Shown one piece after another: positions 15,654 to 34,343 of a stretch of 38,697 nt of DNA (the first letter of the stretch is position 1; each line of letters starts with the position of its first letter). The notes under the pieces were generated by a model. That model was given only the letters and a program-made list of their open reading frames with translations, had not been told where the DNA came from and ran no database searches. Source of the stretch: Alphaproteobacteria bacterium (GTDB taxonomy: Bacteria > Pseudomonadota > Alphaproteobacteria > Rhizobiales > Devosiaceae); assembly GCA_024279675.1 (NCBI GenBank), contig JAJRRG010000177.1:1-38697 (forward strand), read 5' to 3'. A program made the position numbers and the translations under genes.

Positions 15654-17768
15654 TTACCTTCGCTTTACAAAATTTGCGCGCGCCGCCGCCAAAGCAGCGC
15701 CGCCGGGTTTCGTGGCTGTTTTGGTTGTCCCCTTGCCCTGCGCGTCAATCACAGAGGCAAAGCTATTTTCTTGCGACCCAAGCGCCCACATTGGTGGCTT
15801 GTTCCAGTTGATTTTTTCGGCCCCGCGCACGATAATCGCGGCCTTACCCATAACGCCAAGGTCAAGGCTTTCATTACGAACATGCCCCGGTTTCTTTTCC
15901 CAGCCGTCCTCGGTTCTGCGCTCTGCACAAAACTCCTCAAAAATGTTCGAGGGCAAAGTCTCAGGCAAATGGAAAGTACCCGGCCCCGCTTCTTCTCGCA
16001 CCAAAGATGCAGCAATTTCGTCTTTCAGTTTGTTAGTTGAAGCAAAAACAATTTTTACGGAATCTCGGTTTAGATATTTTTTGCCCTGCTGATTTTCCGG
16101 TTGCCGATGCTTGGCGCGGTTCGCATTATTGCCCCCGACGCCCTTGTATAAATAGTAGATATGGCTCAGCCGTTTGCGATGCTTGGCGCGCCAAAACTTA
16201 TAAGCACGATCAGTTGTTCCCGGCGCGCCATTGGAATCAATGATCACCACCAGTGGGCGCAATCCATACCCGGTACCAGCAATCGGAAGTAGACGCTCAT
16301 GCAGGTTGTCCAGCACCGCCCAATCTTCAAAATATAGATTACTCTGCATACCGCGCCGCGCGGCACCCGGCGAACTCTTTGGGGGTGTGGCCAAATCAAA
16401 CCGATCAACCAACCAGCGCTCCAATTCTGGCCCCCATGCATCCACACTCACCACAAACCGCGACGGCTGAACATCCACAGAAATAGTGATGAAACACGTT
16501 TCCTTTGGCGCAACACCGAGCTCTCGAAATTCCGCGCGATCGCTCAGTGCTTTGCCCGATAGATCAAGATTGCTTTCGCGGTTTTTGCTGAGATAGGGCT
16601 CGCCGAGCTTCGTATTTACCACGCCCTTAAGTGTTGACTCCGCGCCCGTGGTTTCCAGTTTTTCCACACCAGACAAATAATTACTAACCATGTCGGCCCA
16701 GGGCTGATATGCCGCCACCGGCCCCTTTTGCCAATAGCTGGCATATTCAGCTTTCCGGATGTTCGCCGCGGTAATCTTGACCCGTTTTTTACCGGTCACA
16801 TCCTCATGCAGCCAACCGGCTCCATTTTCTTCAAGGTTCATCCAATGTTTTTCGTTCGCTTCGATCACGGTGCCGCATTTATCGTGCGGACAAACCATGT
16901 AGGCCGACTCTCCGCGCTCAAATGGGGATCCGTCATCATCATATTTTAGATGCTTAAACTCAGGTTCAAACCGCTTTTTGCATCCGGGGCACTTCCAATA
17001 ATACCGACCCCGTGTTCCTTGGTTGTAATCAGACAGGATGCCTTTTGTCGGTGGCGCTTGATGAATTGTTTCCTTTACCCACGTTTCATCAGTTATTTCT
17101 CTACCGGGCGAACTCTCCAATATCGACATGCCACGAGACCCAAACGAGGTGTTGCGCGCCAGCATCATTGGCAAAATATCACCTTCACCCCCGATATCAT
17201 CACCGATGCGATCGCGATCGGTTGTGATCACCAGCGGGATATCCCGCGACGCAAGTTGGGCCGGAACTGGCCAACCGATGGATAAGGTCGCGCCGCCATT
17301 GAAATCTTTGTTAAACACATTACCCAGTGTTTGCCCGCGGGCTCTTAGTCTCTCGCGCAGTGTCGGATTTTCCCTGAGCATTTTATCAATCTTGCCCTTT
17401 GAAAACCGCCCAGCGGATTCCTTATCCATCTGGGTAATGTGGATATCACACGGGTCACAGATCATCCGGTGCAGCACCACATTTTCAACCAACGCCGTTG
17501 CCTTTCCAGATTGGACTGTGCCCACATAAATTACAGCTTTGTAACGGCGCGATACAGTCATTTCCATTGGTTCGTTCATATAAGGGGTGGCATCGAGGTC
17601 GTACTTCATGCCCTTAATCACACGATATTCTTTGGCGCACTCGCTAGGTGTTAAGTCGATAGTTGGTGTCAGCACCTGCATGGCTTCGAGCAGGATATCT
17701 GAAACTTGAGCAAAGCCAGGGAGAACCCCATCATTGCGATAATAATCATGCGAGGGGTCAACCCTCAT
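15654..17768 (-). CDS. Terminase large subunit (GpA family)
   Basis: 704 aa; PYMNEPMEMTVSRRYKAVIYVGTVQSGKATAL, YYWKCPGCKKRFEPEF zinc motif. Confidence 0.92.
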   Translation of the reverse strand: MRVDPSHDYYRNDGVLPGFAQVSDILLEAMQVLTPTIDLTPSECAKEYRVIKGMKYDLDATPYMNEPMEMTVSRRYKAVIYVGTVQSGKATALVENVVLHRMICDPCDIHITQMDKESAGRFSKGKIDKMLRENPTLRERLRARGQTLGNVFNKDFNGGATLSIGWPVPAQLASRDIPLVITTDRDRIGDDIGGEGDILPMMLARNTSFGSRGMSILESSPGREITDETWVKETIHQAPPTKGILSDYNQGTRGRYYWKCPGCKKRFEPEFKHLKYDDDGSPFERGESAYMVCPHDKCGTVIEANEKHWMNLEENGAGWLHEDVTGKKRVKITAANIRKAEYASYWQKGPVAAYQPWADMVSNYLSGVEKLETTGAESTLKGVVNTKLGEPYLSKNRESNLDLSGKALSDRAEFRELGVAPKETCFITISVDVQPSRFVVSVDAWGPELERWLVDRFDLATPPKSSPGAARRGMQSNLYFEDWAVLDNLHERLLPIAGTGYGLRPLVVIIDSNGAPGTTDRAYKFWRAKHRKRLSHIYYLYKGVGGNNANRAKHRQPENQQGKKYLNRDSVKIVFASTNKLKDEIAASLVREEAGPGTFHLPETLPSNIFEEFCAERRTEDGWEKKPGHVRNESLDLGVMGKAAIIVRGAEKINWNKPPMWALGSQENSFASVIDAQGKGTTKTATKPGGAALAAARANFVKRR

Positions 17769-18406
17769 CCGGTTGCCTTTCGCTCACTGAGTTTAGCTTT
17801 GGCCGCAATGTTGATCACCAAATTTGAATCATTCAGTTTTGTTGCGATTGCACCCACGGTTTCCTTTGCGATCTTTTCCATGGCCTCAGATTGCTCAGGC
17901 GAAAGGCCAACTCGGCGCTCCATAACATCGGGCAAACCAACCAGCTGGTTGCGCACCACCGAAAAAACACCTTCCAGCAACAAAACCATTTCCGAACGAT
18001 AGGCCAGCTTGCCCTGAGCCATGGCGGTTTCTGAATAACGCCGCGCTGCCTCATATTCTGCCGACCTCTGTTTTGGTGTCAACTTCAGCATATCGTTGCT
18101 ACCATCTTCGCCAACCAAGGCCATCCGCAGTAACTCAAGCTGTGCAGTCCGATCATCAAGTAAAGCGGCCTCACCAGCTTTCATGCCATGATACCAGGCC
18201 CAACAATGCGCCAGTTGGAACTCATAGGCTTTACCAGCCCCGCCTTTAGTCAACACCGGCATACCGCCATCTCGATAGCGGGCAACCATCACCTCAGATT
18301 TATCTAGCCCACGAGCTAGCTCTGACAAATTGCACACTAAGTCTTGCACACCTTTGGGCAGAGGATGGGCCTTTAGCAAAGTGAGTAAGTCGTAATCTCT
18401 AAACAT
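17765..18406 (-). CDS. Terminase small subunit (Nu1-like)
   Basis: 213 aa; N-terminal winged-HTH-like LARGLDKSEVMVARYRDGGMPVLTKGG; immediately upstream of GpA-like terminase. Confidence 0.8.
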   Translation of the reverse strand: MFRDYDLLTLLKAHPLPKGVQDLVCNLSELARGLDKSEVMVARYRDGGMPVLTKGGAGKAYEFQLAHCWAWYHGMKAGEAALLDDRTAQLELLRMALVGEDGSNDMLKLTPKQRSAEYEAARRYSETAMAQGKLAYRSEMVLLLEGVFSVVRNQLVGLPDVMERRVGLSPEQSEAMEKIAKETVGAIATKLNDSNLVINIAAKAKLSERKATG

Positions 18407-18424: not shown

Positions 18425-19351
18425 CTAAACAACAACCCAAACCATAACCCTTGAGCCGCTCGAATTTTTTTTATTAAACGGGGTGCGAATTACTCGCGTT
18501 ATGGCATATCCCCAGCAAGGACCCATTCTACCTTTGAGCAGTCCTGCGCCGACGTCTATCGGCGACAATCCGTTCAAAGGCCCGATCAAATACTCGCGGA
18601 GCGGCCGCATGGCCGCCTCGTTTTCAATTTGTTTGAAGGGCAAGATAACTTTGTAATCAGGGCGATCTGTCACAAAAATAAACAACATCTTAACGGCCCC
18701 ACGGCCCGTGCGCTGATAAATACCACGGGGCAACTTCGAGCCAATGGATGGGATAAAATAACGTGCTCCACTTAGTCTACCAGTTTTGCCGCGTTTGCGG
18801 CTTCGTGTGGTTTCCCATTGATAGGGATCGCCGGACTTTAATTGCGACAAAACTTTGCGAACTAGACCTTGAGAAACATTTCCATATTGATTGAGGCGCA
18901 CACCCTTTGCCGGAATTGCATACTCGTCTGGCCTCATCAATCCCGAGCGAATAAGCGCCTTCTCGAACCCTTTGTGAGATCGCGCCTTGCCAACGATTGA
19001 GGGATGAAGATAGCGACCTGCAGGCACACCCTTGGGCGAATAGTCTTTGAAGTACACCCCTGCACTTTGCGTTGGGAAATCGGCTTTGCGTGCGGGCCAA
19101 GTAAATAATGATTTTTTTGTCCAGCGCGTTGGCCTATCGTAACGGGCCGCAATTTCCTTTTCGGCGACCCCCTGAAGTTCTTTCGCCATAGCCGATAACG
19201 CCATAGCCATAGCAAACGGCATCTCTGAGCCGATGATGAGTTTTTGTTCAGCCCTGAATTGCCGGGCATCTATCTTTACATCAACTGCGATGAAATCGGA
19301 GGTGCGTCCGCCATAATAGTTTCCCATACAAAAAGCCCCGCAAACTCTCAT
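18425..19351 (-). CDS. gpZ/tail-completion-like protein upstream of terminase
   Basis: 308 aa; MALSAMAKELQGVAEKEIAARYDRPTRWTKKSLFTWPARK resembles minor tail/tail completion family. The ORF-track ATG (19351) lies in a terminator hairpin; ATG at 19327 (MGNYYGG) is the more likely start. Confidence 0.6.
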   Translation of the reverse strand: MRVCGAFCMGNYYGGRTSDFIAVDVKIDARQFRAEQKLIIGSEMPFAMAMALSAMAKELQGVAEKEIAARYDRPTRWTKKSLFTWPARKADFPTQSAGVYFKDYSPKGVPAGRYLHPSIVGKARSHKGFEKALIRSGLMRPDEYAIPAKGVRLNQYGNVSQGLVRKVLSQLKSGDPYQWETTRSRKRGKTGRLSGARYFIPSIGSKLPRGIYQRTGRGAVKMLFIFVTDRPDYKVILPFKQIENEAAMRPLREYLIGPLNGLSPIDVGAGLLKGRMGPCWGYAITRVIRTPFNKKNSSGSRVMVWVVV

Positions 19352-19365
19352 GAAGAGCGCGGGGC
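19330..19365 (-). terminator. Intrinsic terminator in front of the late operon (tR'-like)
   Basis: Minus strand GCCCCGC-G-CTCT-TCATG-AGAG-TTT-GCGGGGC-TTTTT: 7-bp outer GC stem, 4-bp inner stem, U5 tract. Confidence 0.85.
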
Positions 19366-19573
19366 GTAATTTGATATAGGCATGGGAGAGTTACATAGTG
19401 TTTTCCTGACTTTAGAGACAAGCACATCGGCACCCATTTCAACTCCCATCTCGGCAATCAGCCGTATTGGGCACTGGGTCCGCATATGGTTCGCGCGTCT
19501 AGCCTTTGGGGTACTCCCACCCTGAAATTGTCAGGATTGCCTCGCATCGGATCAACCATTTGGGTCATCTGTA

Positions 19574-19602
19574 AGTATGCGGATGATTCGCAAAAGAGTC
19601 AA
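19574..19602 (-). promoter_or_regulatory. Predicted sigma70 late promoter (pR'-like) with two GANTC sites
   Basis: Minus strand TTGACT-17 bp-CATACT; GACTC overlaps the -35 (19596-19600) and GAATC lies in the spacer (19585-19589). Confidence 0.7.
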
Positions 19603-19631
19603 CACACCCAAAACATGAACGTTTAACCCGT

Positions 19632-20315
19632 TCAACTTGCTAACCTTTCTAGGCTTTCCTCTGCGATATCCACAGCCCGTGCGCCCTCGCCAAACACACC
19701 AGAAAGGCCAAGCATCACTTTGGCACGCCCCTCGCGAAGGGCTACAACTTTACCTTCAAACCCCTCAAATGGCCCTTCAATTATCTCGGCTATATCACCC
19801 CTTGCAAGGTTGGGCTTGCGGGTTTGTGCCTTCAGGCCAGACCGCTTGATGAGCCGTATTGCCGCCGCCACGGGAACCAATGAAGGGCGACCCTCAACCC
19901 CGATCACGCCGGTCACACGGCTAACATCCAACACCGTGAGCCATGGGACAGGCCCCAAATGGGCCAACAAAACCATGGAAGTGAGCATAGCCCGATTGCG
20001 AACAACGCGCCTGTAGCGAGTTTTGCGAGACGCTCTAATCTCGATTTCTTCAACCGGATTGATGGCATTAAATCCCCTCTCTCCCAGCAAATCGACCACC
20101 ATCTGCTCGCTTTGCGGGGCCGTCGTCAACGCATACCAGCTGCAGCTTTCAGCGTGGTCAGGAATATACACTTCCCGGTTTGGTTTCATCACTGGCTTGG
20201 GCCGTGCCGGGCGTTTGGAGGCGTTGGCCCGAACTTTAGCACGGGCCCTGTCACCAGAAGTTTCACGTGGTGGGGGTAGTTTAGATTTGTAACGAGAAAC
20301 CATGGGACACCTCAA
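19632..20315 (-). CDS. NusG-like transcription elongation/antitermination protein (NGN + KOW)
   Basis: 227 aa; SWYALTTAPQSEQMVVDLLGERGFNAINPVEEIEIRASRKTRYRRVVRNRAMLTSMVLLAH (NGN-like), then RGDIAEIIEGPFEGFEGKVVALREGRAKVMLGLSGVFGEGARAVDI (KOW-like). Confidence 0.85.
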   Translation of the reverse strand: MRCPMVSRYKSKLPPPRETSGDRARAKVRANASKRPARPKPVMKPNREVYIPDHAESCSWYALTTAPQSEQMVVDLLGERGFNAINPVEEIEIRASRKTRYRRVVRNRAMLTSMVLLAHLGPVPWLTVLDVSRVTGVIGVEGRPSLVPVAAAIRLIKRSGLKAQTRKPNLARGDIAEIIEGPFEGFEGKVVALREGRAKVMLGLSGVFGEGARAVDIAEESLERLAS

Positions 20316-20359: not shown

Positions 20360-21409
20360 CTATGGCGGCCCAGCCCCGGTCTGCCCATGCAGCTCCAAAG
20401 CCAATTCTGCGCGCACCTCAACCACCATTTGCTTGGGGAAACTAGCAGATGAAAAACCACTCCAAAGCCGCAACTTTGTCGGGTCACCGGCATATTTGAG
20501 CTCAACACACCGACGGTAAAGCTCTGGTTCCTTGGAGGCCAAAACCGTCGAGTTATCACGGGCAAGGCGGAATTGTTCGCGATCCGTCTCAGGGATAACC
20601 ATGCCTTCCCAACTTCGTTTGGTAATCCATTTTGCCAAGCCCACCACATATTGCGACGAGGCTGATTGCCGTCTTTGCGCCATGGCGTAGAATGGCATGG
20701 CGTCCATTGCCGCCGCCCGATGTTCTGCATCCATCAAACCAAAGGCGACAAATGCATCCTGAGCGATATCTCCAGGGCGTTGACAACCAAAGTCCCAGAG
20801 TTTGCGAAATTGAATAATCAAATTGTGCTCAGTTGGTTTGGACATTCCAAACTGATCAAACAGCATTCTCAAATCTTTTCTAATTTGAAAATCTGTCTTC
20901 GCCTCCACTTGTGGAGGGGTATTGTTTATTGGATTGTTCTTTGGACTGTTAGTGTGAACCTCCTTCACCACCTTTATGTCATTAGGTTCACCACCTTTAT
21001 GCATTAGGTTCACCACCTTTTGTGCATTAGGTTCACCACCTGTCGTTAGGTTCACCACCTTTTCTTCGTCAGATTGGTCAATATTTTGCTCAAAATTGAC
21101 GTCATTTTGAGGCAATTCTGAGCGTCCGGGCCATGCCGCTCGGTATTCGTTTGAGCGCCATTTTTGGCCACGAAATCCGTGCTGGGACACAATAATCCAC
21201 CCCATTTCAGCTGCTTTTTGCAGGTGAGTTATAACCGACCGATTGCTCAACCCTGTCGCCTCAACCAACGTTTTTACACTAGGATAGCACCCTTCCCCCA
21301 GCTCGTTCATCCACAGGGATAAAGTGAGTAATACGTGGCGCGTGGTTGCGGGTAATCCGGACTCCGTAGCGACGGCTTTTCGCCACGTCCATGCACTTGA
21401 ATGGCTCAT
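20360..21409 (-). CDS. Replication initiator-like protein with N-terminal HTH (lambda O analog position)
   Basis: 349 aa; TRHVLLTLSLWMNELGEGCYPSVKTLVEATGLSNRSVITHLQKAAEMGWI (HTH_36-like); internal repeats VVNL..GGEPN. Confidence 0.75.
   Translation of the reverse strand: MSHSSAWTWRKAVATESGLPATTRHVLLTLSLWMNELGEGCYPSVKTLVEATGLSNRSVITHLQKAAEMGWIIVSQHGFRGQKWRSNEYRAAWPGRSELPQNDVNFEQNIDQSDEEKVVNLTTGGEPNAQKVVNLMHKGGEPNDIKVVKEVHTNSPKNNPINNTPPQVEAKTDFQIRKDLRMLFDQFGMSKPTEHNLIIQFRKLWDFGCQRPGDIAQDAFVAFGLMDAEHRAAAMDAMPFYAMAQRRQSASSQYVVGLAKWITKRSWEGMVIPETDREQFRLARDNSTVLASKEPELYRRCVELKYAGDPTKLRLWSGFSSASFPKQMVVEVRAELALELHGQTGAGPP
20902..20917. repeat. Inverted repeat CCTCCAC-TT-GTGGAGG next to AT-rich stretch near the iterons
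   Basis: 7-bp perfect arms; followed by GGGTATTGTTTATTGGATTGTTC. Confidence 0.6.
20964..21060. repeat. Iteron array, predicted prophage replication origin
   Basis: Five copies of TTCACCACCT (starts 20964, 20987, 21009, 21032, 21051), four within (CAT)TAGGTTCACCACCT; spacing 19-23 bp; inside the initiator ORF. Confidence 0.75.
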
Positions 21410-24512: not shown

Positions 24513-24805
24513 TCTCCAAACAAATCAGCGCCATCCGCCATAAACGGATCGGCGCTGAACCCCTTTTCAACAGCCAACCATTCCGGGATTTGTAAAATAC
24601 AAACCACAGCTCTTTGCATTGCCGCCGTCGGGCTAGCGCCCTTCCCCGGCACCCCCGACAATTGACCTGCTACGGCTTCCCAATTGGAAATTTGACTAAT
24701 AGGAATCCATTTGGCCTGGGACTGTTCGCCGCAATCTGAAACGTGTACAGCCTCAAGGGTTTCCCGATGCACCATAAGTTCAACCTCAACGAGCTTTTTC
24801 ATCAC
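24503..24805 (-). CDS. Hypothetical phage protein carrying intragenic repeat copy A
   Basis: 100 aa, operonic overlaps on both sides. Confidence 0.6.
   Translation of the reverse strand: MMKKLVEVELMVHRETLEAVHVSDCGEQSQAKWIPISQISNWEAVAGQLSGVPGKGASPTAAMQRAVVCILQIPEWLAVEKGFSADPFMADGADLFGEWQ
24621..24659 (-). repeat. Intragenic element copy A (39 bp)
   Basis: GTCGGGGGTGCCGGGGAAGGGCGCTAGCCCGACGGCGGC on the coding strand. Confidence 0.8.
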
Positions 24806-25377
24806 ATGCCATTCCCTGTTTGCTTTTCAGCAAACGCGCGTTTGGCGTGGACGGCACACCAGCTAGCGCCGGTTGTTACAGGGCATCCACAAAACTTGAT
24901 TTGTGGTTTTTGCCCCGGAAATTCAGATTCAATTTCAAACGGCCAGCGGCACTGCCCCGTTCCAATTTCCATAAGGGTCAGCATCAAAGCGCCAGCTGGT
25001 GCATTGGTTGGGTCAAGAACCCGCGCAACAACCGCAGAATCTGCCTTGCCCGTTTGCGCGCTGTCCCGCCCCACTCTGTAGGTGCCAGAGGTTGAGTTAA
25101 TTCCATTTTGCACCTCGCGGTGATTTCTTTTGGCAACGGGCGTTTTGAAGCTTGGTTTGTTTTTTACACAGCGCGGCCTGCCCCCCAGCCTAATTTTCAG
25201 CCGATCACACCGCCCAATCACCGAATTTCTGGATTTGCCGATTGCCGCCGCTATTACACTTGCAGATTTATCGTCCATCGCCATCTTGCGCAGCAGAAAC
25301 ATCTGCTGTTCAGACCAACGATGAGAAACATTTACAATCGGGTCACTGCTTGTGATTGAAGTCTGCGCGGCGCTCAT
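24802..25377 (-). CDS. GcrA-like cell-cycle regulator (sigma70 cofactor family)
   Basis: RWSEQQMFLLRKMAMDDKSASVIAAAIGKSRNSVIGRCDRLKIRL and C-terminal CRWPFEIES...FCGCPVTTGASWCAVH; ATGA overlap with upstream gene at 25374-25377. Confidence 0.85.
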   Translation of the reverse strand: MSAAQTSITSSDPIVNVSHRWSEQQMFLLRKMAMDDKSASVIAAAIGKSRNSVIGRCDRLKIRLGGRPRCVKNKPSFKTPVAKRNHREVQNGINSTSGTYRVGRDSAQTGKADSAVVARVLDPTNAPAGALMLTLMEIGTGQCRWPFEIESEFPGQKPQIKFCGCPVTTGASWCAVHAKRAFAEKQTGNGM

Positions 25378-26870
25378 TTGGCACCGCCCTCGGCAGTACC
25401 ATCGCCCATGACGGGGATGGGCCCGGTACGGCCCGACTTGTAGATAGTGGTGGGAATGCGCCAAGTGGAAGCGCGCATCGACGCTGAGGCGTTGGCCACA
25501 AATTCACTCGACCAAATCCTGTTCGAAACCGCGCTGATATTGGCCGCAGTCACAATCTCAAAACAGTCCGCCGAAACGCACCCCAACTCACTGGGGAAAA
25601 GTGGGTGCTTTTGCATGGCGTAAAAGCTGATTTTTTTGTCCGCCACGCGAACCAGCAATTCTAAATCATCAATATTCACCCGCGCTACAATCGGCGCTGA
25701 CATATCCTCACTCTTCTTTGACGCTTTCGCCCGCGCCTTGGTGCCAACCGGCGGGGATGACTTTTTTGTCGCGCCGCCGTTGGCCCTAGTCGGGCCGTCC
25801 CCGGCACCCCCGCCATTTTCTTTACCTACGCAAGGTTTTCCGGGGTTGGGCAAAAGCGGCAAGTGGCTGGCATCGCTGACACCATCGACCAACGTAATCC
25901 CCCGCGCTTCGTCGGACTCGGTTTCATTCCCCCACGCACACCACCCATCCCGCGCCACGCCCCGCGCATTCAATTCAATTTTGGGCAGGGACGGGAAATA
26001 ATGCTCGATCAGATAGTAAAAGTTGTCTGGCTTTTGACTATGGCGCGCCAAATCAGCAGTTATCACACTGCCCCACTGCTCGCCCTGCGCCGGGCAAGGC
26101 ACCTTCCCGCGCGTCCCTATCAATAAAATGTCGTGACGATTTCTATTCCAATAACCAGTGCCCGCTTTGGGTTTGCGCCAAATAAACTGCGAACGATATT
26201 TGAAACCCCACTCATTTAAAACGTCGAGTGCATGCTCCAACATCGGCACAGTGGCCCACAGAAACAAAACACAATCATCCGCCGCTATATCACCGACTGG
26301 CCGCGCTTTGATCATTTCCACACTTGACGTAGCATAATGGTTATCTGCCGCCCTATCCATGCCAGTTTCGGCGCTATATGTTTCAAACTTCCATTCTGGA
26401 TCCGCATAAACCACCCCGAATTTTCGCGTTGGCAATGCGATTTGCTTATCCCCAAGCTCGCGCTCACGGGCCACACGTTTGGCTTTTTTTGCAACAGTTG
26501 TAATATCCTTGCGCATCATCTCGGGGCGAATGGTCTTGTCCTCCAACCGTGCCGCGAATGTCTCATAGTCAAGTTTGGTCAGTTCATAGAGCGTGCGTGG
26601 GCTAGGGGGCAAACACGACCCATGGGTCGCATTTGATAGCCGCTCATCAGCCGCAATGGCCATCAATCTTTGAGATTCGCGCACCCCAAACGGCAATTGA
26701 TTCTCAATCATTTGCTGAAATTCGCCGTGCGGCAATTGGGATTTTGCGGCCTTTAACAACCGACCTGTTTCAAGGATCGCCGCGATAGATTTTTGCCAAG
26801 TGCCAGAAATATCCCGCGCAAAAGCATCCGCATTTCGCGCCGTCTCATCCGGTAAAATGATCTCATTCAT
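25374..26870 (-). CDS. MT-A70 family adenine methyltransferase with N-terminal DUF3102-like region
   Basis: GVVYADPEWKFETYS (DPPW-like), FLWATVPMLEHALDVLNEWGFKYRSQFIWRK; N-terminus ETGRLLKAAKSQLPHGEFQQMIENQLPFGVRESQRLMAIA. Confidence 0.88.
   Translation of the reverse strand: MNEIILPDETARNADAFARDISGTWQKSIAAILETGRLLKAAKSQLPHGEFQQMIENQLPFGVRESQRLMAIAADERLSNATHGSCLPPSPRTLYELTKLDYETFAARLEDKTIRPEMMRKDITTVAKKAKRVARERELGDKQIALPTRKFGVVYADPEWKFETYSAETGMDRAADNHYATSSVEMIKARPVGDIAADDCVLFLWATVPMLEHALDVLNEWGFKYRSQFIWRKPKAGTGYWNRNRHDILLIGTRGKVPCPAQGEQWGSVITADLARHSQKPDNFYYLIEHYFPSLPKIELNARGVARDGWCAWGNETESDEARGITLVDGVSDASHLPLLPNPGKPCVGKENGGGAGDGPTRANGGATKKSSPPVGTKARAKASKKSEDMSAPIVARVNIDDLELLVRVADKKISFYAMQKHPLFPSELGCVSADCFEIVTAANISAVSNRIWSSEFVANASASMRASTWRIPTTIYKSGRTGPIPVMGDGTAEGGAK
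25773..25814 (-). repeat. Intragenic element copy B (42 bp)
   Basis: GGCGGGGGTGCCGGGGACGGCCCGACTAGGGCCAACGGCGGC on the coding strand. Confidence 0.85.
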
Positions 26871-26888: not shown

Positions 26889-27422
26889 TTAATCCGCCGT
26901 CGGCCCTAAGTGGGCCTTCCCCGGAACCCCCGCCGTTTTTGCGGTCGTCTTCATCTGGTCAATTTGTTGATCAAGCGATGCTAGCGCCTCTTGCGCCTCG
27001 CGAATTTGCCCATGCAAATGTTCGCACTCTGCCTCGGTGATGCAGTCATCCCTCAGCGCTTCGGCCACGCCACCTGACACATCTGCAACCTCATGAAGCA
27101 TGCCTGACACGCGCGCGATCAGCTCTACCGCATCATCCCCGCCCCGCGCCTTGGGGAGTGGCACAAGCACAAACCCTTCCATTTCGGCCAGTAATTTGGT
27201 GACCCGAGGTTGCCCACACTCCGCTTCCAGATCAGCGATGACATCAAGGGGCGGAAACTGGCGCGCATGCTCTGGGCTGGCGCTCATATAACGAGATATT
27301 TGCTGTTGGCTGACCCGAGCGATATTGCTGGCGGCGTTGGGCCCACCACATTGGCGAACCAACCCCCGGAAAGCACCGATTAACGCGGAATATTCATTTG
27401 CCGCCAGATACCCGCTCAGCAT
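26889..27422 (-). CDS. Phage CII-like regulatory protein
   Basis: ALIGAFRGLVRQCGGPNAASNIARVSQQQISRYMS...FPPLDVIADLEAECGQPRVTKLLAEM pattern of the phage regulatory CII family. Confidence 0.75.
   Translation of the reverse strand: MLSGYLAANEYSALIGAFRGLVRQCGGPNAASNIARVSQQQISRYMSASPEHARQFPPLDVIADLEAECGQPRVTKLLAEMEGFVLVPLPKARGGDDAVELIARVSGMLHEVADVSGGVAEALRDDCITEAECEHLHGQIREAQEALASLDQQIDQMKTTAKTAGVPGKAHLGPTAD
26893..26934 (-). repeat. Intragenic element copy C (42 bp)
   Basis: GGCGGGGGTTCCGGGGAAGGCCCACTTAGGGCCGACGGCGGA; forms the last codons of the CII-like gene. Confidence 0.85.
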
Positions 27423-27993: not shown

Positions 27994-28046
27994 GCGGTTT
28001 TTGTAACGGCTAGTAATATTCTTTGGCGCGGGTAGGATACCGCAAC

Positions 28047-28733
28047 ATGAGCAACGACCTGACAAAAAGAATTTCACAACGCCTTGGCGAACTCAATTTG
28101 AGCGCCCAAAAAGCGTCCCTTCGCGTATCAAATAACCGAGATTTTTTACGCAATGTGTTGCGGGCTGGCGAGGACGCAAACCCCAAGCGTGAAACGATCC
28201 TCCTAATCGCCGAGGCGCTGGAAAGCAGTGCAACGTGGCTTTTGACTGGTCATGATTCGGAAAATAATGTTGCCAACGAGGTAACCAGAGCAAATATTAC
28301 CCTACCCTATCGCGATTCAATGCCCCGCGATGTACCTGTGCGCGGCACCGCTGCCGGCGCAATGGGAACCACAGGCGCATTTGAGTTTACCTCTGATACT
28401 GTTGACTACGTTAGACGCCCGCCAGGCCTAGCAAACGCGAGTGACATTTATGCACTTTATGTCACAGGCGAAAGCATGGAGCCGCGATATCATCATGGGG
28501 ATTTGATTTTTGTATCACCGCACAAACCGATTTCCCCTAATGACATTATAGTTATCCAAGAGGCCAATACGGACAATGGGTGCCCGCAAGCTTTCATTAA
28601 ATTATTCTTGCGCCGCTCCGGCTCTAGAATCATGACGCGTCAATACAACCCCCTGAGCAACGTTACTTTTATGGTAAAATCTGGCACAGTGATGCACAAG
28701 GTATTATCCACTAACGAGATGCTTGGTATATAA
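28047..28733 (+). CDS. CI-like repressor (HTH + S24 peptidase)
   Basis: MSNDLTKRISQRLGELNLSAQKASLRV..., YALYVTGESMEPRYHHGDLIFVSPHKPISPNDIIVIQ (S24 active-site region). Confidence 0.9.
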   Translation: MSNDLTKRISQRLGELNLSAQKASLRVSNNRDFLRNVLRAGEDANPKRETILLIAEALESSATWLLTGHDSENNVANEVTRANITLPYRDSMPRDVPVRGTAAGAMGTTGAFEFTSDTVDYVRRPPGLANASDIYALYVTGESMEPRYHHGDLIFVSPHKPISPNDIIVIQEANTDNGCPQAFIKLFLRRSGSRIMTRQYNPLSNVTFMVKSGTVMHKVLSTNEMLGI

Positions 28734-29111: not shown

Positions 29112-29122
29112 TCCCGCTTTTT
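29100..29122 (+). terminator. Hairpin plus U-tract ending the repressor unit; also operator-like (O2)
   Basis: AAGCGGG-ACTAAT-CCCGCTTTTT. Confidence 0.7.
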
Positions 29123-29124
29123 GC

Positions 29125-29153
29125 TTGACGCGGGATTAAACCCGCACTATAAC
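29125..29153 (+). promoter_or_regulatory. Second promoter with CI-type operator O3
   Basis: TTGACG-CGGGATTAAACCCGCAC-TATAAC; shares GCTTGACGCGGGATTAAACCCGC with O1 (opposite strand). Confidence 0.8.
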
Positions 29154-29183
29154 CTCTTCATCTTAAAACCGATGGAGAGAGTT

Positions 29184-29735
29184 ATGAACAATCCCAACCA
29201 ATGTGAATATTGCGGTAAGTATGCATCAAAAGATGATGGGTATTTCGCCCCGCCGATGGCTGCAGGCAAAAACGTTCGTCTATGTTGCGACGCGGTTTGT
29301 GCCGACGATCTTTTGGCCCGTGACAAGCAACAACTTGCCACCCCAGCCTTTACCCGCCTCGATGAGATGGTAGCTTTTATGCTCGATCGCCAGAGCGTAT
29401 CAATCGAGGATCTGATAATTGAAGGGTACTCGTTCGATGAAATCGGCGATCTTGTCGGTCAAGCGCAAAAGATTGCCAACCGCAAGCTGGTTCAACACCT
29501 GCATGTGGTTCCCACGCCCCCAAATGACCCTGCCCCGCTTTCCACGCGCAACGCCGCCCGCCTGATCGCCAACCTATTGCCCGATCAGAGAGAGGTTTTT
29601 GCCACGCTGGAAGCGCAAGGGATGAGCGAAGCGGAAATCTCGGCGTCCCTTCCTGAAATTATTGCCATCGCGGCGGACAATTTCGCCGTATCCCTGCCCA
29701 CACTTGGCCTGCCCGCTCATCGGGCGGTTGCATAA
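29184..29735 (+). CDS. Hypothetical protein with N-terminal Cys cluster
   Basis: MNNPNQCEYCGKYASKDDGYFAPPMAAGKNVRLCCDAVCADDLL; SD GGAGAGAG upstream. The track start (29121) overlaps the promoter. Confidence 0.65.
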   Translation: MNNPNQCEYCGKYASKDDGYFAPPMAAGKNVRLCCDAVCADDLLARDKQQLATPAFTRLDEMVAFMLDRQSVSIEDLIIEGYSFDEIGDLVGQAQKIANRKLVQHLHVVPTPPNDPAPLSTRNAARLIANLLPDQREVFATLEAQGMSEAEISASLPEIIAIAADNFAVSLPTLGLPAHRAVA

Positions 29736-32974: not shown

Positions 32975-33384
32975 ACGACGTGGATATTGATGCGCCAATG
33001 ACCTTAGAAAGAGCCTGTGAAGTTGTGTTCAAAAACTCCATCGGAGCCGACACCTTGCGCGCCCAGGCAAAACGCGGCAATCTGACCATTGAAAAAATTG
33101 GGCGAAGACAATTTGTAACGCACCGCGCAATCGCAGACATGAGGCAAAAATGCCAAATCAACACCGCTTCAAAGGCGCTAGGCTCTACCTTCAGCCAGAA
33201 CGGCGGAACAACGCCGATCAACTCATCGAACATAGTATCTGGGTCATCCGTGACGGACCGCGCAAGCGTAGCACTCGTTGCGGCCCAAATGACCGCGACC
33301 AAGCTGAAAGAAAGCTTGCAGAGTACATCGCCGAAAAACACCAACCGGAACAACAATCAAGCACTAACCCTGATCAAATCCTGA
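32971..33384 (+). CDS. Excisionase-like small DNA-binding protein
   Basis: MTLERACEVVFKNSIGADTLRAQAKRGNLTIEKIGRRQFVTHRAIADMRQKC (MerR/Xis-type HTH); overlaps integrase start. Confidence 0.7.
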   Translation: MNDVDIDAPMTLERACEVVFKNSIGADTLRAQAKRGNLTIEKIGRRQFVTHRAIADMRQKCQINTASKALGSTFSQNGGTTPINSSNIVSGSSVTDRASVALVAAQMTATKLKESLQSTSPKNTNRNNNQALTLIKS

Positions 33385-34343
33385 TTGCTGATATTCTAAA
33401 TCTCTATCTGAAAGATAAAGCACCCACAGGCTCCCGGCCAATGGAAACCGCAAGCCGCGTTTCGCGCCTTTTGAACTGGTGGGGCAACCCTGAACAGGCA
33501 CAAAAAGACCTTATCGCCGCCAACCAGAACACTAGTTTTTATGGCGTTGCGGGCGATGTTCGCGGCGCAACCTGTCGATGCTTTGCCACCACAATAAAGG
33601 CAAAATCCCAAGCGCGGCGACTCTTGGAAGACCTCCGAGCAGCCCTGAATTATGCATTTCAAGAGGGGATGATTGACCGGAAAATCCCAGTGACACTCCC
33701 ACAAAAACCACAACCGCGAGACAGATGGTTATCGCGGAACGAAGCCGCCAACATGGTTTGGCGTGCATGGCGATATCGGGATCCACTCACGGGGTTTGCA
33801 ACCCGAAAACACGTCGCTCGATACATTTTGACCGGGCTTTATACCGGAACCCGAAAAGCCGCTATACTTCACACTGCCTTTGATCGCCGTCCTGGGTGTG
33901 GTTTCATCGACCTAAAAAACGGGGTTTTCTATCGCTTGGCCCAGGGCAAAAGGCAAACCAAAAAACGCCAACCTCCCATCCGTGTTCCGGCACGGCTATT
34001 GGCACATATGCGCCGCTGGAAGCAAAATGATCAAAAATTCCTGATTGAGTATTTGAGCTCTCCAATTACCGATATTGGCAATGCGTTTGAATCTGTCGCG
34101 CATGAATGCGGGTATTTTGATGTGACCCCACACACCTTGCGCCACACAGCGGCGACATGGGCCATGCAAAATGGTGGCGACGCGTGGAAGATTGCCGGAT
34201 ATTTGGGCATGAGCCTTGAAACGCTGGTCAATAATTATGGACATCATAGCCCCGAACATCTGGATGGGGCCGGTGATGTAATTGCTCATCGAAACAAAGC
34301 GAAAATCACCCCGACTAACCCCGACAGGAAAACCGGAACATAA
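33150..34343 (+). CDS. int: Tyrosine-type phage integrase
   Basis: ILTGLYTGTRKAAILHTAF ... VTPHTLRHTAATWAMQNGGDAWKIAGYLGMSLETLVNNYGHH (R..HxxR..Y). Confidence 0.93.
   Translation: MPNQHRFKGARLYLQPERRNNADQLIEHSIWVIRDGPRKRSTRCGPNDRDQAERKLAEYIAEKHQPEQQSSTNPDQILIADILNLYLKDKAPTGSRPMETASRVSRLLNWWGNPEQAQKDLIAANQNTSFYGVAGDVRGATCRCFATTIKAKSQARRLLEDLRAALNYAFQEGMIDRKIPVTLPQKPQPRDRWLSRNEAANMVWRAWRYRDPLTGFATRKHVARYILTGLYTGTRKAAILHTAFDRRPGCGFIDLKNGVFYRLAQGKRQTKKRQPPIRVPARLLAHMRRWKQNDQKFLIEYLSSPITDIGNAFESVAHECGYFDVTPHTLRHTAATWAMQNGGDAWKIAGYLGMSLETLVNNYGHHSPEHLDGAGDVIAHRNKAKITPTNPDRKTGT

Follow-up and report, generated by a model that had tools for sequence, protein, structure and literature searches.

The late-gene junction of the prophage

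The window, a stretch of 38,697 nucleotides from a bacterium of the Devosiaceae, carries a temperate, lambda-ordered (lambdoid) prophage in which a NusG paralog occupies the place that gene Q has in lambda. On the minus strand, the NusG-paralog gene is followed by a predicted promoter of the form TTGACT-N17-CATACT, a leader of about 237 nt, an intrinsic terminator, and the late operon (Table 1). Methyltransferase genes, a GcrA-like gene, and a replication-initiation gene precede the paralog in prophage order, and a replication-initiation-type gene also neighbors the NusG-like gene in the phages phi3LM21, LagS-V1, and Rivra. The right end of the window holds host ABC-transporter genes.

The late operon opens with a minor tail protein gene in the slot of lambda gpZ and includes both terminase subunits and genes for portal, protease, major head protein, tape measure, and tail fibre. 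These matches bear out the first-pass annotation, which had placed a gpZ-like, terminase, capsid, and tail operon after the terminator. The first late gene of phi3LM21 is the same, with 41.5% identity over 68% of the query. A terminator lying inside the first late gene was considered and rejected: the open reading frame start, ATG 19351, falls in the terminator loop, and the in-frame ATG 19327, just past the T tract, is the better start.

Two other genes of the prophage have regulatory matches. A phage-borne GcrA-like cell-cycle regulator (24802-25464, minus strand; PF07750, 9.5e-19) lies near genes for C5 and MT-A70 DNA methyltransferases. A gene near the repressor (29121-29735, plus strand) has a weak match to sigma-70 region 4 (4.3e-5, below the cut-off).

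Table 1. Features of the window, with positions counted from its first letter.
Feature	Position	Strand	Basis or detail
Terminase subunits, late operon	15654..18406	-	TerS 17765-18406; TerL 15654-17768
First late gene, minor tail protein (lambda gpZ-like slot)	18425..19327	-	PHROG 1924, 7.5e-51
Intrinsic terminator (tR'-like), GCCCCGC-[17]-GCGGGGC-TTTTT	19330..19365	-	-20.3 kcal/mol
Late-gene leader RNA, ~237 nt	19331..19567	-	Predicted start near 19567
P2 (GTGCCC/GGGTGC) around P3 (CGGC/GCCG), hairpin domain	19430..19474	-	Block common with G052 leader
P1 3' strand and conserved CCCAG, CGGA-CCCAG	19474..19482	-	
P1 5' strand, GG-TTGA-TCCG	19548..19557	-	P1 rule from relatives
pR'-like sigma70 promoter, TTGACT-N17-CATACT	19574..19602	-	Motif; TTGAC aligned in G052 leader
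NusG-paralog gene (NGN + KOW, 223 aa), predicted late antiterminator, lambda Q slot	19632..20303	-	Pfam, PHROG, PDB profile, Foldseek
HTH replication-initiation gene, directly upstream of NusG paralog	20360..21409	-	Profile match
CII-like gene	26889-27422	-	
S24 repressor	28023-28733	+	
Integrase	33150-34343	+	

The NusG paralog

The protein in the Q slot has the features of a specialised NusG paralog (NusG-SP): an NGN domain is followed by a KOW domain, and the gene is additional to host nusG. Its likely start is ATG 20303, with GAGG upstream, which gives 223 residues; TTG 20315 is merely the mechanical start of the open reading frame (19632-20315). The protein matches Pfam NusG (PF02357; 5.8e-7, above the cut-off), Pfam KOW (PF00467; 1.1e-4, at the cut-off), and PHROG 6386, named "transcription antiterminator" (3.5e-15). 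The best match in a PDB profile search is NusG (1.4e-22), and RfaH is matched at 3e-15. An AF2 model, made with six sequences in the alignment, has a mean pLDDT of 68, at which fine detail is unreliable, and its KOW domain is beta with low confidence; the best Foldseek matches of this model are NusG and RfaH. Pfam, PHROG 6386, PDB profiles, and fold thus uphold the earlier description of an NGN and KOW protein comparable to NusG and RfaH. Compared with the known lambda Q protein families, the paralog has no similarity, and its matches are to NusG and KOW in Pfam and to PHROG 6386.

Host housekeeping NusG is encoded elsewhere, on contig C18 (1.4e-29), and falls in a different clade from the window paralog in a tree of 43 proteins. 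In this tree, the phi3LM21 clade of phage paralogs adjoins host NusG, a second phage clade comprises LagS, G228, G294, and G341, and a third comprises the window together with G052, G033, G055, G096, G137, G172, and G232. Ten of the 11 sampled paralogs from outside phage loci group in another clade. In the paralog of G052 (locus L033, 13420-14187, minus strand), about 33 residues are inserted within the NGN domain.

Predicted promoter and terminator of the window

The predicted promoter (TTGACT 19602-19597, CATACT 19579-19574) lies 29 nt past the NusG-paralog stop, where the first-pass annotation had put it at about 30 bp. It has 9 of 12 consensus matches, a score that about 0.3% of mononucleotide shuffles of this stretch equal. 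The predicted start gives a leader close to the roughly 235 nt described before. The terminator is also predicted to be strong, as described before: 2 of 500 dinucleotide shuffles form a U-tailed hairpin that equals or exceeds the stability of a shorter variant of it. A loop longer than 8 nt kept this terminator off the list of the scan tool.

Related phages and the leader RNA element

Direct searches with the window protein among phages, IMG/VR, and GTDB contigs gave no matches, so relatives were gathered by whole-genome searches and then chained. Gene content and gene order recur in Sinorhizobium phage phi3LM21, where about 223 nt separate the NusG-like gene from the first late gene, and Labrenzia phage vB_LagS-V1 and Agrobacterium phage Rivra have a like arrangement. 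The same slot between replication-initiation and late genes also occurs in several prophages. In the phi3LM21/Rivra type, the NusG-like gene is followed after 11-14 nt by a structured RNA element, the terminator, and the first late gene, and the leaders of phi3LM21, vB_LagS-V1, and Rivra have a common sequence and fold. One phage recorded as cyanobacterial (L159; Nostoc phage Nsp-JY10, PP395642) yet carries a NusG-like gene and leader RNA of the Rhizobium-phage type, and its host assignment may be doubtful.

The element is 105-166 nt long and opens at or near the predicted 5' end of the transcript. Its long-range helix P1 pairs GGNNGA-[about 5 nt] with [about 5 nt]-CC across strands 35-100 nt apart; a hairpin domain made of P2 and P3 lies between P1 and a tail that resembles CAGTGCTACAGCTATGA. 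An 8-sequence alignment, made by MAFFT before the structure was named, has 97.6% standard pair cells and five pairs with double changes. In a 20-sequence alignment, which was fitted to the model so that its counts lean towards structure, 96.4% of pair cells are standard, 8 pairs (27 cells) carry double changes, and all five core P1 pairs are doubly changed with none broken. The aligned leaders are related by descent, and these counts are not numbers of independent events. None of 500 shuffles reached the covariation of P1, and slid controls were at most 54% paired. The held-out leader of G137 scored 12.7 bits (E 5e-4 in 3.7 kb). Rfam has no gathering-level match for the element in the window or its relatives, and no UNCG-tetraloop hairpin belongs to the conserved element. 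This conserved, covarying RNA is the most telling part of the arrangement and was absent from the first-pass annotation.

Two otherwise diverged leaders (L040 and L046, from G033 and G055) have in common a 40-nt block, GATCCGtaGTCAGCC-ATCGAGCCGAGACcCGGG, just past the NusG-like stop. This block may represent another form of the loading element.

Promoter register at the start of the leader

A simple one-by-one scan had left most leaders of the relatives without a promoter, a result reversed when the sequences were aligned at the NusG stop codon. The -35/-10 pair then gives one offset peak per group: -23 in 13 phi3LM21-type phages (cTTGcc-N18-TACAAA; z 5.3 against other offsets in the same sequences) and -26 in six other phages (mostly TTGACA-N17, with the -10 beginning at the stop codon; z 7.0), the sequences within these sets being related and not independent. 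All 12 phages with leucine under the -35 encode it there as CTT, compared with 0.20 elsewhere in these genes. The promoter should therefore overlap the NusG stop in the relatives at a fixed register, and the transcript should begin at the GG that opens the RNA element. Unlike that of the relatives, the window promoter does not overlap the stop and lies 29-58 nt beyond it.

The predicted start coincides in most leaders with GGACGAT or GGTCGAT. This motif would also suit recruitment of the protein through DNA, either by an ops-like non-template hairpin or by a promoter-proximal sigma pause at GGNNGAT, in the manner of RfaH or lambda Q; lambda pR' carries a -10-like pause motif within its first transcribed bases. 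Recruitment of this kind is nevertheless unlikely, as neither a pause motif nor a local DNA hairpin explains the covariation of P1 with a partner strand 35-100 nt further downstream.

The window leader as a probable diverged member

The window leader aligns over about 200 nt with that of G052, its nearest relative (score 56 against a null mean of 29, p ~0.0005). TTGAC is conserved at the aligned position, and the P3 pairs are changed on both sides between the two leaders. The window leader also satisfies the P1 rule, as do 4 of 5000 shuffles of it, and the rule is satisfied at three sites over both strands of the whole window; having been worded after the window was seen, the rule is supportive and not decisive. 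Covariance models place P1 at the same site with scores of 0.9-4.3 bits, which are not significant, and under the RNA model the window leader comes third, outranked by two other sites of the window that are probably matched by chance. A match of the R2 model at 2474-2552 on the plus strand (12.5 bits, above the leader) is antisense within the tail fibre gene and was set aside as probably due to chance.

The minimum free energy fold of the window leader pairs CGGACCC with GGGTGCCG, and this pairing and P1 are mutually exclusive, which could be a switch or meaningless. The pairing may also compete with the P2-P3 hairpin domain. Taken together, the comparison suggests that the window leader is a diverged member of the phi3LM21-type leader RNA.

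Conservation of the terminator and use of the slot

The first-pass annotation had raised the question of conservation in related prophages, and promoter, leader, and terminator do recur with NusG paralogs of different clades. The terminator stands 5-17 nt past the element in 18 of 18 loci. In G052 and four other loci (L116, L131, L115, and L036), by contrast, the 480 nt after the NusG stop hold no clear U-tailed terminator, and not every member of the window's own clade therefore has one.

Where phages of Paracoccus, Rhodobacter, and Dinoroseobacter carry a related terminase module, the proteins at this position are unrelated; this would suit, but does not prove, a late-regulator slot whose occupant can be exchanged. 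In L202-L205 (Paracoccus Psul1 and Pben1, Rhodobacter RcRhea, and Dinoroseobacter R4C), the slot protein belongs to PHROG 9306, to PHROG 27826, or to neither, with no NusG or KOW match; these proteins are candidates for other late regulators.

Pben1 has a terminator at the same junction despite its unrelated slot protein. Such a case, like the relatives with no clear terminator, would accord with a terminator that insulates early from late genes, a different activator for the late genes, and a NusG paralog that serves as a general anti-pausing or anti-Rho factor. A fixed-register promoter before a structured leader and terminator would then have no obvious use, and this explanation is considered highly improbable.

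Association of the RNA element with the protein gene

Searched in IMG/VR regardless of genes, a 17-mer from the element finds 18 contigs, 13 of which match the full RNA model at 78-171 bits. Two of these 13 lie too near a sequence edge to show the upstream gene, and in all 11 contigs with enough upstream sequence a NusG-like gene ends 11-14 nt before the element. The same 11 contigs have a terminator within 17 nt of the element, and most have a terminase or HNH late-module gene beyond it. Across 398 genomes of the host's order, the RNA model gives one match, again such a phage, under strict filters by which diverged members would be missed. A search of this order with PHROG 6386 returned mostly host NusG. 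A pattern drawn from the window and G052 leaders matches three IMG/VR contigs, with a NusG-like gene solely in the G052 phage itself, and the first late protein in IMG/VR gave no pattern match.

The constant pairing of gene and element (11 of 11) bears on whether the leader could act alone, contacting RNA polymerase as HK022 put RNA does, while the NusG-like protein does something else. RNA antiterminators of the put type are known, and the element does covary as an RNA. An RNA that acted constitutively, however, would leave the terminator without regulatory purpose, and action by the RNA alone is judged very unlikely.

A proposed late-gene switch

The arrangement is probably a Q-like late-gene switch with the phage NusG paralog as its antiterminator. 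The first-pass annotation had proposed this role, and the recurring slot, promoter, leader, and terminator support it, the activity itself being read by analogy. The paralog is by gene order the last gene before the late genes and downstream of the replication genes, and a promoter at or just past its 3' end would start the leader transcript, as the fixed-register motifs indicate. Judging from the phi3LM21 group, the leader would fold into the conserved RNA that ends 5-17 nt before the terminator, with the window's version diverged. Most polymerases would halt at the terminator when the paralog is absent. With enough protein, by analogy with LoaP and Q, the NGN domain would bind polymerase, specificity would come from the leader RNA, and polymerase modified in this way would read through into the terminase, head, and tail genes. 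That the protein loads on RNA polymerase at the leader and carries it past the terminator like LoaP is the most likely mode of action: the same three parts as in LoaP, found in the lambda position, make the same action the most economical reading.

The evidence tips slightly in favor of a class of phage late antitermination based on a NusG paralog that recognises a new, covarying RNA in the leader, opening at or near the transcript 5' end. Paralogs from two or more separate clades, probably three, would occupy its slot, each clade keeping a variant of one leader architecture. No report of a NusG-family phage late regulator was found in the open full-text literature, and the first-pass annotation likewise knew of no well-described phage late switch of this type. 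The main text of the phi3LM21 paper has no mention of NusG or antitermination, and a paper on RfaH evolution mentions rfaH-like genes on prophages only in passing. If true, the proposal would identify the early-to-late regulator that is missing in a set of phages from Rhizobium-type and related bacteria, add an RNA-guided system to the few that act by processive antitermination in Proteobacteria, and provide small protein-RNA pairs for studying how NusG paralogs find their operons.

Comparison with known systems

The lambda Q-pR'-tR' circuit is alike in lying at the early-late boundary, with a regulator just before a promoter, a short leader, a terminator, and an operon of gpZ-like, terminase, capsid, and tail genes. 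As far as sequence can tell, the window follows this order, which the first-pass annotation had recognised. The regulator here, however, is a NusG paralog and not a Q-family protein. Lambda Q relies on a DNA site together with a sigma pause, whereas the leader of the relatives is a conserved structured RNA that begins at the predicted transcript end. Antitermination in phage HK022 likewise involves a structured leader RNA, put; unlike the proposed switch, put needs no phage protein.

RfaH resembles the window paralog as a specialised NusG paralog for chosen operons and in its NGN fold. It may differ in its autoinhibited helical hairpin, where the AF2 model of the paralog has a beta KOW domain at low confidence. 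RfaH is described as inefficient against intrinsic terminators (PMC7819879). PHROG 6386 is the sequence family of these phage proteins, but it supplies a name with no target or mechanism and also matches host NusG.

LoaP, which acts on the dfn and mln operons of Bacillus velezensis, combines a NusG paralog, a leader RNA element, and an intrinsic terminator in an operon-specific system (PMC12691694). In vitro, its leader hairpin, terminator, and NusG paralog suffice (PMC12691694). LoaP-dependent read-through works through antagonism of NusA. Phages of the phi3LM21 type have both the leader RNA structure and the intrinsic terminator, and the window has the terminator and a suggestive match to the RNA element. 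In LoaP the element is a small hairpin with a UNCG tetraloop that precedes polyketide operons, whereas that of the phages is 105-166 nt long, is built on a long-range helix, and stands before the late genes.
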